This document shows positions 3,214 to 8,058 of a stretch of DNA of 8,058 nucleotides, one piece after another. Source of the stretch: a bacterium (GTDB lineage Bacteria; SM23-31; JAUVVT01); contig JAUWXV010000170.1 of the NCBI GenBank assembly GCA_030616165.1, positions 1 through 8,058 on the forward strand. The letters run 5' to 3'. The position numbers and the translations under genes are program-made. The first letter of the stretch is position 1. Every line of letters starts with the position of its first letter. Under the pieces are notes generated by a model. It was not told the DNA's origin and ran no database searches. It worked only from the letters and a program-made list of their open reading frames with translations.

Positions 3214-3603
3214 ATGATATCAGAAATACTTTCTCCCAAAAAACGAAAATTTATTTCATTATTAATAACTCAAGGTTTTAAAAAACCTGTATCAAATGAA
3301 ATTGCAAAAGAAATAGGAATAAGTCTTACTACATATTACAGGTGGCTCAAAAACGAACAACTCTTAAAAATCGCCGAGCAGGAAAAAGCAGTCGATTTTA
3401 AAAAACAGATGCCTGAAGTTATGGCAAAATTGGTGAAAAAAGCAAAAAACGGAGATACAAAAGCCATAAAGATTTATCTTGATATATTTTATAATCACAT
3501 AAACGACAAAAATGATGAAGAAATCCTAACACCTGATAAAGCCATCGATTTAATTCATAAGGCAAGAAAAGAAAAAAATGACAACGAAATTAAAAATCAA
3601 TAA
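3214..3603 (+). CDS. Helix-turn-helix protein, phage terminase small subunit/phBC6A51-like
   Basis: The 129-residue product has an N-terminal helix (LSPKKRKFISLLI), a helix-turn-helix at about residues 25-47 (PVSNEIAKEIGISLTTYYRW, with the I-A-x-x-I-G-I-S turn), then LKNEQLLKIAEQ. A helical domain follows (PEVMAKLVKKAKNGDTKAIKIYLDIFYNH, residues 68-96) and a charged tail. This order, HTH then 'W-L-K-x-x-x-L' then 'L-x-x-x-A-x-x-G-D-x-x-A-x-K-I-x-L', is that of phBC6A51-family/terminase small subunit-like proteins, which bind DNA in phage packaging or occur as prophage leftovers. No terminase large subunit or other phage gene follows; the next 250 bp are repeats. It may be an orphan phage gene or a domesticated regulator. 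Start: ATG at 3214 with AAGG (3205-3208) at good spacing. Length is normal for the family and no lesion is seen. Confidence 0.7.
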   Translation: MISEILSPKKRKFISLLITQGFKKPVSNEIAKEIGISLTTYYRWLKNEQLLKIAEQEKAVDFKKQMPEVMAKLVKKAKNGDTKAIKIYLDIFYNHINDKNDEEILTPDKAIDLIHKARKEKNDNEIKNQ

Positions 3604-4098: not shown

Positions 4099-5853
4099 TT
4101 AAAAATTACTCTGCAGTCCGAAATGAATTTTGGCGTTGGCAGGGCTGTCTCCTTCCCCTATTCCATAATCAAATCCGATTAACCCAATTTTCGAAGATAT
4201 GCGGAATCCAAATCCGTATCCAGATCTAAAAAGTTTAGATTCACTCCTTTTAATATATCCCCCATCATAAAAAAGAAATATGCGTGATTTTTCACCAAGA
4301 AGGTATCTGTATTCGAGTTTAATAAGGCTGACAGTTGAGCCCCGGAACTGCCTTTCCTTGTATCCTCTCAGAGAGTTTGTTCCACCCAGCGTAAATAACT
4401 GACTATACGGTATTTTACCTTCAGTAGAAGATATTTGAGCGCCATAAATATGCGAATAAATCGAGCCCTTCTTTGTCGTCGGCATAGAAATCCGAAGGTC
4501 AACCGTCATCTTTTTATCCAGAAATTCTCTTGGATTAGAATTACCCGAAAGATTCTCACCTTTAAGATTGTTCCTTTTTCCGATAGAATAAAAAGTCGAG
4601 TAAAAAATTCCCTTTCTTGGATTAAGTCTGTCGTCTCTGGAATCATAATCAAAACCAATTTTCCCGTAAATCATCCTTGAATCCGAAATATTGTATTCCG
4701 ATTTTCCGAACTTATCAGGTATGGTATTTTCATATCCGAACGTCAAAAATCCTGATATATTGTTAAACAACGGGAGATTGAATTCACCGGCAAATCCCCT
4801 TTTAAGATATGTTGAATCCTCAACCGACTGGTTGAAAAATACTGACATATTTACAGGAAAATTTAGAAAATAGGGTTCACTATACTGTAAATTTAAATCC
4901 TGTGAAAATCCACCTCTATTTTCCCATTTTACCGAAACCGACCTTCCGGTTCCGAAAAGATTTCCAAAAACAATATCTATGAATCCATTTATCTGTCCTT
5001 TTGATGAATTACCTCTCGAAGGCAAATACCCTAAAATACCGCTGAAATAATTGGAGGATTTCTCAATAACTTTTAATAGAATTCCATTTTTTGAAGATTT
5101 AAAAGTTATAAGTTCCGGTTTCCCATCAAGTTTTATAAATTCAAGTTTATTAAATCTTTTAGAAACATTATTCAGCAATTTCTGGTTAAAAAACTCACCC
5201 TCTTTAAGACGGCTTTCTCTTATTATTAGATTCTTTTTAGTAAAATTATTACCTTCTACGGCAATAGTGTCAACCTTTACGGGCGAACCCTCATTTATAT
5301 AAAATTCAAGCAAAATCTCGCTGCTTTTACCAATATCCTCAAAACATTGCTCTTCGATTTCAACTTTACAGAACGGATATCCATTTTCTTCATACCATTT
5401 AATAATCTTCTCTATTCCACTTTCAATACCTTTTTCATTAAAGTAATCTCCTTTAGAAATACCAAAATTTTTCGATAATATGTCACCAGATATTACATTG
5501 TTCCCATTAAATCTAACTGCTTTTATCCTTATCTTTTCACCCTCATAAATGTAAATTTTTACACCTTTTACCGATTCGCTATCTCTTAATTCACACAGCG
5601 AATCAATCCGCACATTATAATAGCCCAAATCTTTATATTCATTTAATATTTTTCCCAAACAATCATAAATCCTGTCGTAATCAAACTTCTCTTTAAAATC
5701 CTCTGCCACTTTCCCGATTAGATAATCATCAGAAAATACATTATTTCCGATAAACTCAATATTTCCCACTTCTCTTTTAATCTCAGAGCCTTTAACATTA
5801 AAAGAGAATAAAATAATCAATATCAAAAATATTATAAATGGTTTAGTATACAT
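4099..5853 (-). CDS. Omp85-family outer-membrane assembly protein, TamA/BamA-like
   Basis: The 584-residue protein starts with a Sec signal peptide (MYTKPF, then a hydrophobic run to about residue 20, cleavage near KGS at 21-23). Three POTRA domains follow at about 29-107, 108-191 and 192-267, each opening with a strand of the pattern I-x-F/V-x-G-N-N (IEFIGNN, VRFNGNN, IAVEGNN) and carrying the usual helix pair and G-Y-Y/G-Y-P turn. Residues 270-584 form the surface-antigen/D15 barrel: YDSRDDRLNPRKG (403-415), and the loop-6 motif GGTNSLRGY (490-498) containing the family's R-G-Y/F, ending in KIHFGLQSNF with the C-terminal aromatic of barrel proteins. BamA usually has five POTRAs and about 800 residues; three POTRAs and 584 residues match TamA. 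It should sit in the outer membrane, with POTRAs in the periplasm, and help insert beta-barrel proteins. No TamB is in the window. The start is fixed by the signal peptide; no Shine-Dalgarno sequence is seen. It follows the large barrel gene by 86 bp. Confidence 0.93.
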   Translation of the reverse strand: MYTKPFIIFLILIILFSFNVKGSEIKREVGNIEFIGNNVFSDDYLIGKVAEDFKEKFDYDRIYDCLGKILNEYKDLGYYNVRIDSLCELRDSESVKGVKIYIYEGEKIRIKAVRFNGNNVISGDILSKNFGISKGDYFNEKGIESGIEKIIKWYEENGYPFCKVEIEEQCFEDIGKSSEILLEFYINEGSPVKVDTIAVEGNNFTKKNLIIRESRLKEGEFFNQKLLNNVSKRFNKLEFIKLDGKPELITFKSSKNGILLKVIEKSSNYFSGILGYLPSRGNSSKGQINGFIDIVFGNLFGTGRSVSVKWENRGGFSQDLNLQYSEPYFLNFPVNMSVFFNQSVEDSTYLKRGFAGEFNLPLFNNISGFLTFGYENTIPDKFGKSEYNISDSRMIYGKIGFDYDSRDDRLNPRKGIFYSTFYSIGKRNNLKGENLSGNSNPREFLDKKMTVDLRISMPTTKKGSIYSHIYGAQISSTEGKIPYSQLFTLGGTNSLRGYKERQFRGSTVSLIKLEYRYLLGEKSRIFLFYDGGYIKRSESKLFRSGYGFGFRISSKIGLIGFDYGIGEGDSPANAKIHFGLQSNF

Positions 5854-5893
5854 AGTTAATTTTTAAAATAAATAATTAAATAATTTATTTCCT

Positions 5894-5919
5894 GACACCT
5901 TTTTTTCAAAAAAGGTGTC
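5894..5919. repeat. Perfect inverted repeat between the two outer-membrane genes
   Basis: GACACCTTTTTT (5894-5905) and AAAAAAGGTGTC (5908-5919) are perfect 12-bp arms around TC. On the gene strand it follows the stop codon of the large barrel gene by about 20 bases and precedes the Omp85 start by about 40. As RNA it would fold, but no T-run follows on the gene strand, so it could be a weak terminator/attenuator, an mRNA-end stabiliser, or a REP-like element. The GGTGTCCC edge recalls the GGGGACACC of the RAYT leaders. Confidence 0.75.
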
Positions 5920-5939
5920 CCAAAAAACTTTAACATAAA

Positions 5940-8058
5940 TTAGAAAAATGCTCTCATTTCAACCCTTCCGATATGGAATATTCCTCTTTTTTCTTTATAA
6001 CCTGAATACTCAAAGTCCGCAGTAATATGATTAGCGATACGATATTGGAAATTCAATTTCAATCTGAAATTATCCCCCGGTCTTTTACCCTCAGCCATTT
6101 CGTAGGCAAGAATATCAACCTTCGGGTTTGTCTGAACCTTAAACCACTCAAATTCACCATTAATGCGACCCTTATTAGTAAGAGAATATCTGAATGACGG
6201 CATAAAAGAGATATAATAAAGACTTAATTCATTATAAATTGAATTATTTTTTTCCTTACCTAATTTGAATCTCGCCTTATATTCGATTCTTATTTCAGGT
6301 TTGTAAAAAAACTCAATATTAGCACTATTGGAAATAATATCTCTTCCCCATGATGGATTATTTGAGAAAATTCTCATTAAAGATTTATTTTTGAGATTGA
6401 GCAACAATCCCATATTCCTTACAAAGTTTGACTTTATTTCAACTGATCTTTCAAAAAAACTTCTATTTTCGCTTCTTTCTACAAACTGATTATTAATTAA
6501 CGATGAATAATTCAATCTCACTCTCATATAAAAATTCTTAATGTTTTCAAAAAACGTAAAATCCTGCAGTATTGAAATATTTCCAAAAAAAACATTGCTG
6601 TTTTTTTGAACATTAAATGATGGAATACTGAAAAAATCCGTTTGTTTTTTATTTTTTGACTTTTCTTCAAATCTGAATATGGATTTGGTTTTTAATCCTT
6701 TTAACATTTTAAAAATTATATTCTTATTGTCTTTATTCAAAAACTTTGAAAAATTAACATCAACAGTAGAGCCAAACTTAATTCCTTCTACAGAATGAAA
6801 TTCATCTGTTGCAAATGTTCGAGTAATAAAATTGCCGTTTCTATCCGGATAATATTCACCAGTCATATCATTTATGGAATAATCCCCTTTCCCCTCTTCT
6901 ACCTGAAAATAGACCCTCCTCTTTTTTGGTGCTCTCTCACTCGAAAGTTGATAATTATTCTGTAAAACTATTCCACGATTTTTCGTAGAAAATCTTATTC
7001 TTATATCGCCGAGGTTTGTAATAATATCTTCTCTGTTATCAGCAAATTTTTTACTCCTATTGATAAACTCTGCGGATGCAGAAAAATTACTTCCTTTTCG
7101 GAAATTAAAACCAATATTCCTTGTAAATGCCTTTGATGACGGAGAGAAACAGAATTTATCGAACACCTTATCTTTCCTGAGACGAAATGAACTATAACCT
7201 GAAAAGATGTTACCCTTCTTATATTCAATTTTCCCGCCGATATTGCTGAAGTTGAATCCATTATCAGTTATAAAATCTGTGGCTTCTTTTTTAATCTCTC
7301 TCTCGAACTCAAATGACGGTTTCAAAGAACCGAATTTATAAAATATATTCCCCATCTCCCTTATCCAATCGCCTGAATAATTATCATTTAGATGACTGCT
7401 TTTTATAGATTCTCTCTTGAAGAAAATATATGGTAGAGATTTATGTGAGATTTTAATCTCCATAGAATTTCTACCCGATTTCACATATTCACCAATCCCG
7501 AATTTTCCGAGAATAGCATTAAACAAAATGTAAGGGCGGGGAGATATTAGTGCATTAACTTCCAGTTCATTCTCCCCTTTTATTTCATCGCCTTTCAAAT
7601 CCCATTTTCTGTGATATTCAACCTCTCTTGTTCTGTCAATACTGTAAAAATTTTCATCCCTCTTTTTAAGTTTTGCTGAAAAATTGACTTTACCAAGATT
7701 TAATCCTTTTATTGAAAGTGCTTTCGGGGAAACGGATAGACCAATATTCACAGCACTACCGCTATTTTTCTTATTGGTAAGACCACTACTGTTTTGACTC
7801 AGAGCAAATTCCGAATTAAAACTGATATAATCATTTGGCTTAAAATCAAGTTGAATATCTCCAACACTCCTGCTTTCCCCGCTTCCGATAATTATTATCG
7901 GAAGATAATCACCTTTACTCCTTCCCATCCACCTGTATATTTCTCCGCCCAAAAAGTCATAATCACCAGCCTTATCTCCAACTCTTGAAAATGTAACCTT
8001 GTATTCTCCGAGATTCTCACCAACATAAGAATAATAAATCGTTCCGAGAGAATCTACC
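5940..8058 (-). CDS. Large outer-membrane beta-barrel protein with GxxxGDY motifs (N-terminus outside window)
   Basis: The frame is open to the right edge; 705 C-terminal residues are visible and the true start lies beyond 8058. A TTG at 7950-7952 is internal, since the frame continues upstream as a clear part of the protein. Nearest the edge are three spaced repeats, VGENLGEY (8001-8024), VGDKAGDY (7959-7982) and MGRSKGDY (7905-7928), the last followed by LP. A fourth, VEEGKGDY, is at 6879-6902, followed by GEYYPDRNGNFI. The rest alternates polar and hydrophobic residues with many aromatics, as in transmembrane beta-strands, and has no helical membrane segments or catalytic motif. It ends RVEMRAFF with a C-terminal Phe, as outer-membrane barrels do. 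Near the end, LAYEMAEGKRPGDNFRLKL then FQYRIANHITADFEYSGY looks like the closing strands of uncharacterised giant barrels in FCB-group bacteria, as I recall them. Function is unknown. SprA/Sov-type secretion barrels were considered but not supported. Confidence 0.75.
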   Translation of the reverse strand, partial: VDSLGTIYYSYVGENLGEYKVTFSRVGDKAGDYDFLGGEIYRWMGRSKGDYLPIIIIGSGESRSVGDIQLDFKPNDYISFNSEFALSQNSSGLTNKKNSGSAVNIGLSVSPKALSIKGLNLGKVNFSAKLKKRDENFYSIDRTREVEYHRKWDLKGDEIKGENELEVNALISPRPYILFNAILGKFGIGEYVKSGRNSMEIKISHKSLPYIFFKRESIKSSHLNDNYSGDWIREMGNIFYKFGSLKPSFEFEREIKKEATDFITDNGFNFSNIGGKIEYKKGNIFSGYSSFRLRKDKVFDKFCFSPSSKAFTRNIGFNFRKGSNFSASAEFINRSKKFADNREDIITNLGDIRIRFSTKNRGIVLQNNYQLSSERAPKKRRVYFQVEEGKGDYSINDMTGEYYPDRNGNFITRTFATDEFHSVEGIKFGSTVDVNFSKFLNKDNKNIIFKMLKGLKTKSIFRFEEKSKNKKQTDFFSIPSFNVQKNSNVFFGNISILQDFTFFENIKNFYMRVRLNYSSLINNQFVERSENRSFFERSVEIKSNFVRNMGLLLNLKNKSLMRIFSNNPSWGRDIISNSANIEFFYKPEIRIEYKARFKLGKEKNNSIYNELSLYYISFMPSFRYSLTNKGRINGEFEWFKVQTNPKVDILAYEMAEGKRPGDNFRLKLNFQYRIANHITADFEYSGYKEKRGIFHIGRVEMRAFF

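Follow-up and report, generated by a model that had tools for sequence, protein, structure and literature searches.

A distant, shorter relative of the SprA pore co-inherited with an Omp85-family protein and an NHL propeller: a putative second giant outer-membrane channel

Why should the gene for a giant outer-membrane barrel lie next to that for an Omp85-family protein, the family to which outer-membrane insertases belong? The question is raised by an 8058-base stretch of bacterial DNA (GenBank assembly GCA_030616165.1, contig JAUWXV010000170.1), referred to here as the window, which spans the whole of contig C339 in a draft genome of 3.74 Mb. Its minus strand carries the C-terminal part of the barrel gene (positions 5940–8057, an open reading frame of 705 codons that is open at the contig end) and a complete Omp85-family gene (4099–5853, 584 aa, ATG start). 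A preliminary description of this DNA had placed a barrel of more than 700 residues directly before a TamA-sized Omp85 protein on the same strand, and we confirm this arrangement. The 86-bp gap between the barrel stop and the Omp85 start (5854–5939) shows no hairpin of the terminator type on the minus strand, which would fit a single transcript. It is quite possible, if somewhat short of probable, that these genes belong to a second giant channel of the outer membrane, served by an Omp85 assembly factor of its own and by a propeller as accessory.

The N-terminus of the barrel, which the preliminary description had placed beyond position 8058, was located with a profile of barrel relatives on another contig of this genome, C215, at its end. 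The last 426 codons of that contig (L227:11707-12986) code for a stretch resembling a signal sequence together with the first portion of the barrel. Compared with the protein of the sister genome G001, the C215 part corresponds to residues 1–424 and the window part to those from 431 onward, which gives a whole barrel of about 1137 aa. We infer from this fit to G001, and not from a single contig read across the junction, that C215 and C339 join. The gene order on C215 is rplM, rpsI, rpsB, tsf, pyrH and frr (the ribosomal and translation genes were named from sequence), then the gene for an NHL propeller and, directly after it, the barrel. In G001 the NHL gene and the first 877 barrel residues are found on one contig, behind the same genes. 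The propeller of the window genome is a secreted protein of 324 aa with NHL repeats over the Pfam cut-off (86.5 bits), and an N-terminal hydrophobic stretch is present in all 35 of 35 propellers. All three proteins carry signal sequences. The gene pair of the preliminary description is conserved, but is more properly a trio, as the propeller gene precedes the barrel. Barrel C-termini (RAFF or AAFR) resemble a β-signal, and the window barrel ends in ...RVEMRAFF.

The trio is inherited together across phyla, whether its genes are linked or unlinked. A first alignment of ten barrels had no stretch conserved enough for a scan of the genome collection, for which a five-member alignment sufficed. 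Relatives of the barrel were found at at least 584 loci; the best 80 of these belong to KSB1, Calditrichota, LCP-89, Gemmatimonadota, Ignavibacteria and other Bacteroidetes records. The order propeller-barrel-Omp85 is present in KSB1, LCP-89, Gemmatimonadota and several Calditrichota, and in Ignavibacteria all three genes are present but scattered. In a broad sample of 310 genomes, one or two per family, 61 contain the barrel, and 31 of these have an Omp85 gene directly downstream on the same strand, so that the pairing proposed in the preliminary description extends far beyond this genome. Members of the Omp85 clade, scored at 200 bits or more, occur in 42 of the 61 barrel genomes vs 3 of the 249 others. 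When 28 barrel genomes were tested, 27 had a full-length Omp85 orthologue, even where unlinked (496–843 bits, whereas BamA and TamA proteins reach at most 154). A single clear propeller orthologue, unlinked, was identified in 10 of 11 Ignavibacteria-type genomes.

Gene neighborhoods of this kind could also reflect a loose cluster for outer-membrane biogenesis, in which the Omp85 protein would act on many clients as a general third factor for assembly or lipid homeostasis and insertion of the barrel would fall to BAM. In the class of the window the trio sits behind rpsB-tsf-pyrH-frr, where outer-membrane genes are often located. The unlinked Omp85 gene of Ignavibacteria is found instead in a fixed group of genes that comprises rimO, those for a sugar kinase and a UbiA prenyltransferase, rnhB and MlaE/F/D-like genes (L152-L157, L047, L230). 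Both arrangements would fit a loose cluster. A UbiA gene also directly follows the triad Omp85 gene in genome G004 and in a Gemmatimonadota genome. We nevertheless regard this explanation as unlikely. Triads are also found in quite different genomic surroundings, and the occurrence of the Omp85 clade follows that of the barrel more closely than that of SprA, the pore of the type 9 secretion system: among SprA-bearing genomes the clade is present in 42 of 59 with the barrel and in 1 of 25 without it.

Membership of the window protein in the Omp85 superfamily is clear. It has three POTRA stretches followed by an Omp85 barrel (Pfam Omp85, 73 bits), its AlphaFold2 model shows three POTRAs and 16 barrel strands, and the alignment contains the conserved motif GGTNSLRGY (RGF/Y). 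Pfam and the model thus agree with the three POTRAs of the preliminary description. The protein has a signal sequence and no lipobox; a lipobox-like motif is found in 1 of 48 relatives. When superposed with VIA-align, the model matches POTRA3-5 and the barrel of E. coli BamA over 516–536 residues (Z 25–26) and TamA at Z 24. A maximum-likelihood tree was made of the triad and unlinked Omp85 orthologues, 14 TamA-type proteins (11 of which are adjoined by a Pfam-confirmed TamB) and 7 BamA proteins. In this tree a 100/100 branch parts the orthologues from both reference groups, and the branching within their clade is unsure owing to very long branches (L050, L053, L054, L056). The fold of the protein is that of an insertase, and its clade is neither BamA nor TamA.

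Several known members of the superfamily were considered for the window protein and rejected. It is not the sole BamA of the organism, a case that the preliminary description had named as one that would refute its proposal: the genome encodes its own BamA elsewhere, with five POTRAs and next to OmpH, and the window protein lies outside the BamA clade and scores 164.6 bits with the NCBIfam BamA model TIGR03303 (cut-off 297). It shares with BamA the Omp85 fold, a POTRA3-5-like arm, the 16-strand barrel and the RGF/Y motif, but BamA has five POTRAs in most phyla. Three POTRAs and a size near 580–600 aa recall TamA. This identity was rejected on the basis of the tree, a score of 45 bits with NF047950 (cut-off 625) and the lack of a neighboring TamB, a gene that the preliminary description had correctly reported as not adjacent; a weak TamB candidate lies on another contig, C288. 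Genomes with the trio also have separate pairs of TamA and TamB. TamL was likewise rejected: the score with NF052279 is 24 bits (cut-off 400), and the lipobox and TamB neighbor of TamL are both lacking. With TpsB/FhaC the system shares an Omp85 protein linked to a large partner gene. TpsB/FhaC, however, has two POTRAs and a secreted β-helix partner, whereas here there are three POTRAs, a membrane-barrel partner and a propeller gene in front; two-partner secretion was rejected on account of this membrane-barrel partner. A listing of Omp85/TpsB subfamilies from 2014 has ten entries, including a Bacteroidetes/Chlorobi lipoprotein group that later became TamL (PMC4104836, PMC4494059). Separately, we observed a patatin-like phospholipase fused to POTRA and Omp85 parts, similar to PlpD, on contig C328 of the window genome, G000 (L059:5685-8339). 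It has three POTRA stretches, while PlpD was described with one (PMC4104836).

For the giant barrel, Pfam gave nothing above cut-off in the window part; matches to Prok-E2_D and to DUF2460, the latter on a module with the pattern DY-IDY, fell below cut-off and were taken as chance. A sequence search of the PDB with the barrel profile gave nothing significant, and SprA_N (PF14349) had no match at E ≤ 1 in the window part or in four relatives. The structure of a 1139-residue relative (L063) was predicted with AlphaFold2 from a 60-member alignment (mean pLDDT 85.6, pTM 0.72). The model has an N-terminal β domain followed, as counted by DSSP, by 40 strands after residue 144, and two small inserted β domains interrupt the predicted barrel strands. 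A Foldseek search over 350,542 PDB chains returned four SprA structures as its top four matches (6h3i, 6h3j, 8gl6, 8gl8). With VIA-align, SprA was matched over 715 residues, nearly the whole barrel, at Z 14.8, the longest alignment of the fifty listed. Comparison by hhalign with SprA proteins of the same genomes gave a probability of 96.4 % (E 1.4e-9, 160 columns) for a match spanning the module 'GTERVYIDGE..RGE..DYVIDY..GQITFT' and the barrel stretch 'E.A.S..D.N..S..DD.DN.G.A'. The N-terminal copy of the DY-IDY module was matched as well. Taken together, the hhalign and Foldseek matches indicate that the barrel is a distant and shorter relative of SprA, with a homology that is real but partial. 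The preliminary description had called the barrel uncharacterised, which this kinship with SprA now qualifies; its full length is about 1140 aa.

Like SprA/Sov, the protein is predicted to be a very large single-chain outer-membrane barrel, and the two have in common the module 'SE.V..DG..L..G.DY.IDY..G.I.F', present twice in the new barrel, with the barrel segment that follows it. SprA is longer, at about 2000–2400 aa, and has 36 strands compared with the approximately 40 predicted here, and in contrast to SprA the new barrel has no SprA_N match in Pfam and is accompanied by its own Omp85 and propeller partners. As read from strand parity in the DSSP string, both DY-IDY modules would be periplasmic and both GDY-containing spots (see below) would face the outer side. 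Residues 190–204 of the L063 barrel (TPIQPEGNTQ.L.E.DKV) are among the best conserved and yet among those with the lowest model confidence; they may form a lumenal or partner-binding segment.

It could be argued that the barrel is no protein channel at all, but a structural, adhesive or lipid- or polysaccharide-handling protein that resembles SprA through a shared plug-like module and its size alone. Matches to the model also come from LptD, TonB receptors and porins, and the homology in sequence is confined to the DY-IDY module and one short barrel segment. We consider such a role quite unlikely, given that SprA fills the first four places of the Foldseek search and provides the longest of the fifty alignments. 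Moreover, 59 of the 61 barrel genomes encode a separate SprA (on contig C242 in the window genome).

For the proposed channel and its assembly factor we envisage the following mechanism. The barrel would be exported by Sec, and the POTRA-bearing Omp85 protein, predicted to be shaped like the insertase BamA, would fold and insert this unusually large client. The propeller, in the periplasm, might act on the POTRAs or on the mouth of the barrel, by analogy with the BamB propeller that serves BamA; the new propeller differs from BamB in being of the NHL type. A Nature paper of 2025 on the BAM subunits of Bacteroidota mentions neither NHL proteins nor a propeller. Once finished, the barrel would be a wide gated channel that probably exports folded or bulky cargo, parallel to SprA.

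A number of results weigh against this proposal. In about half of the barrel genomes the genes are no longer linked, and in 19 of the 61 no clade Omp85 is detected at 200 bits, the protein being divergent or absent. The Fisher tests of co-occurrence treat genomes as independent and ignore shared ancestry, so that their significance is overstated. The Foldseek superposition on SprA is imperfect (TM 0.23–0.30, root-mean-square deviation about 30), the VIA-align match has a deviation of 8.0, and similar or higher Z values are obtained over 250–370 residues with ordinary porins and the usher FimD. The limited extent of the sequence homology counts here as well. The Omp85 protein is a predicted partner of the barrel, which BAM could insert in its place, and both the channel function and its cargo are putative.

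The Omp85 protein might alternatively be a working part of the channel, docking beside the finished barrel and carrying or gating cargo, with the trio as one export machine. In the type 9 secretion system a second barrel, PorV, occupies the lateral opening of SprA (PMC10994853), which provides a precedent, and the fixed gene order, the three-way co-occurrence and the kinship of the barrel with SprA are all in favor. PorV, however, belongs to another barrel family and has no POTRAs, whereas the Omp85 protein retains the POTRA-barrel layout of an insertase and the RGY motif. A role in transport seems improbable to us. The preliminary description had suggested either a substrate with its dedicated insertase or a two-part export machine, and of these we tentatively lean to the former, with the Omp85 protein as an assembly factor.

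The broader form of the proposal is an export pathway apart from the type 9 system, sharing the ancestry of its pore and distributed across many FCB phyla, in which a single-chain barrel of about 40 strands would be built by its own Omp85-plus-propeller unit, a client-specific miniature of BAM. This we put forward as a possibility, and a rather doubtful one. Searches of the open-licence literature on NHL and Omp85 proteins, SprA homologues in Gemmatimonadota, SprA in KSB1 and giant barrels of Ignavibacteria yielded no description of the trio; what we rate as new is the dedicated combination of a SprA-like pore with an Omp85 protein. If correct, many FCB bacteria own a second giant outer-membrane channel beside the type 9 translocon. 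An Omp85 insertase dedicated to one client would then allow a direct test of a standing question, namely how barrels of very large size are assembled and whether paralogues of Omp85 serve clients of their own. The barrel also offers a smaller relative in which to study the origin of SprA, from a family with no Pfam or NCBIfam entry found here.

The preliminary description had further reported repeated G-x-x-x-G-D-Y motifs in the barrel. These do exceed the shuffled expectation: the window part contains three GDY (0.12 in shuffles) and two G-x3-G-D-Y (0.01), counts reached in none of 5000 shuffles. They are limited to two or three spots, however, and do not form a repeat along the entire barrel. 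Residues 13–51 (positions 7905–8021, minus strand) hold the G-E-Y and G-D-Y motifs of an inserted GDY domain, which corresponds to approximately residues 390–476 of a full-length relative. The second spot, residues 387–412 (6822–6899, minus strand; GKGDYSINDMTGEYYPDRNGNF), is flanked by two long barrel strands.

The remainder of the window is of a different character. Between positions 1066 and 3081 we found dispersed direct repeats, comprising a 58-nt unit in five copies and a 126-nt unit in two copies at 88 %, together with a TTGTAGGGGCGAACCC..GTGTTCGCCC unit that bears a palindrome and occurs twice. The repeats look like mobile or repetitive extragenic palindromic (REP)-like elements and may have caused the assembly break. 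A short plus-strand open reading frame at 1146–1358, starting MVVPDYTHHVTKRGIRRQQAFF and without a Pfam match, looks like a broken REP-associated transposase. Between the repeats and the trio, an HTH_Tnp_1_2 protein (3214–3603, plus strand; PF13022, 56.8 bits) appears as an element-like DNA-binding protein. At 292–672, on the plus strand and in very AT-rich surroundings, the window encodes a stand-alone S-adenosylmethionine decarboxylase-like protein of 126 aa (PF02675, 41.5 bits).

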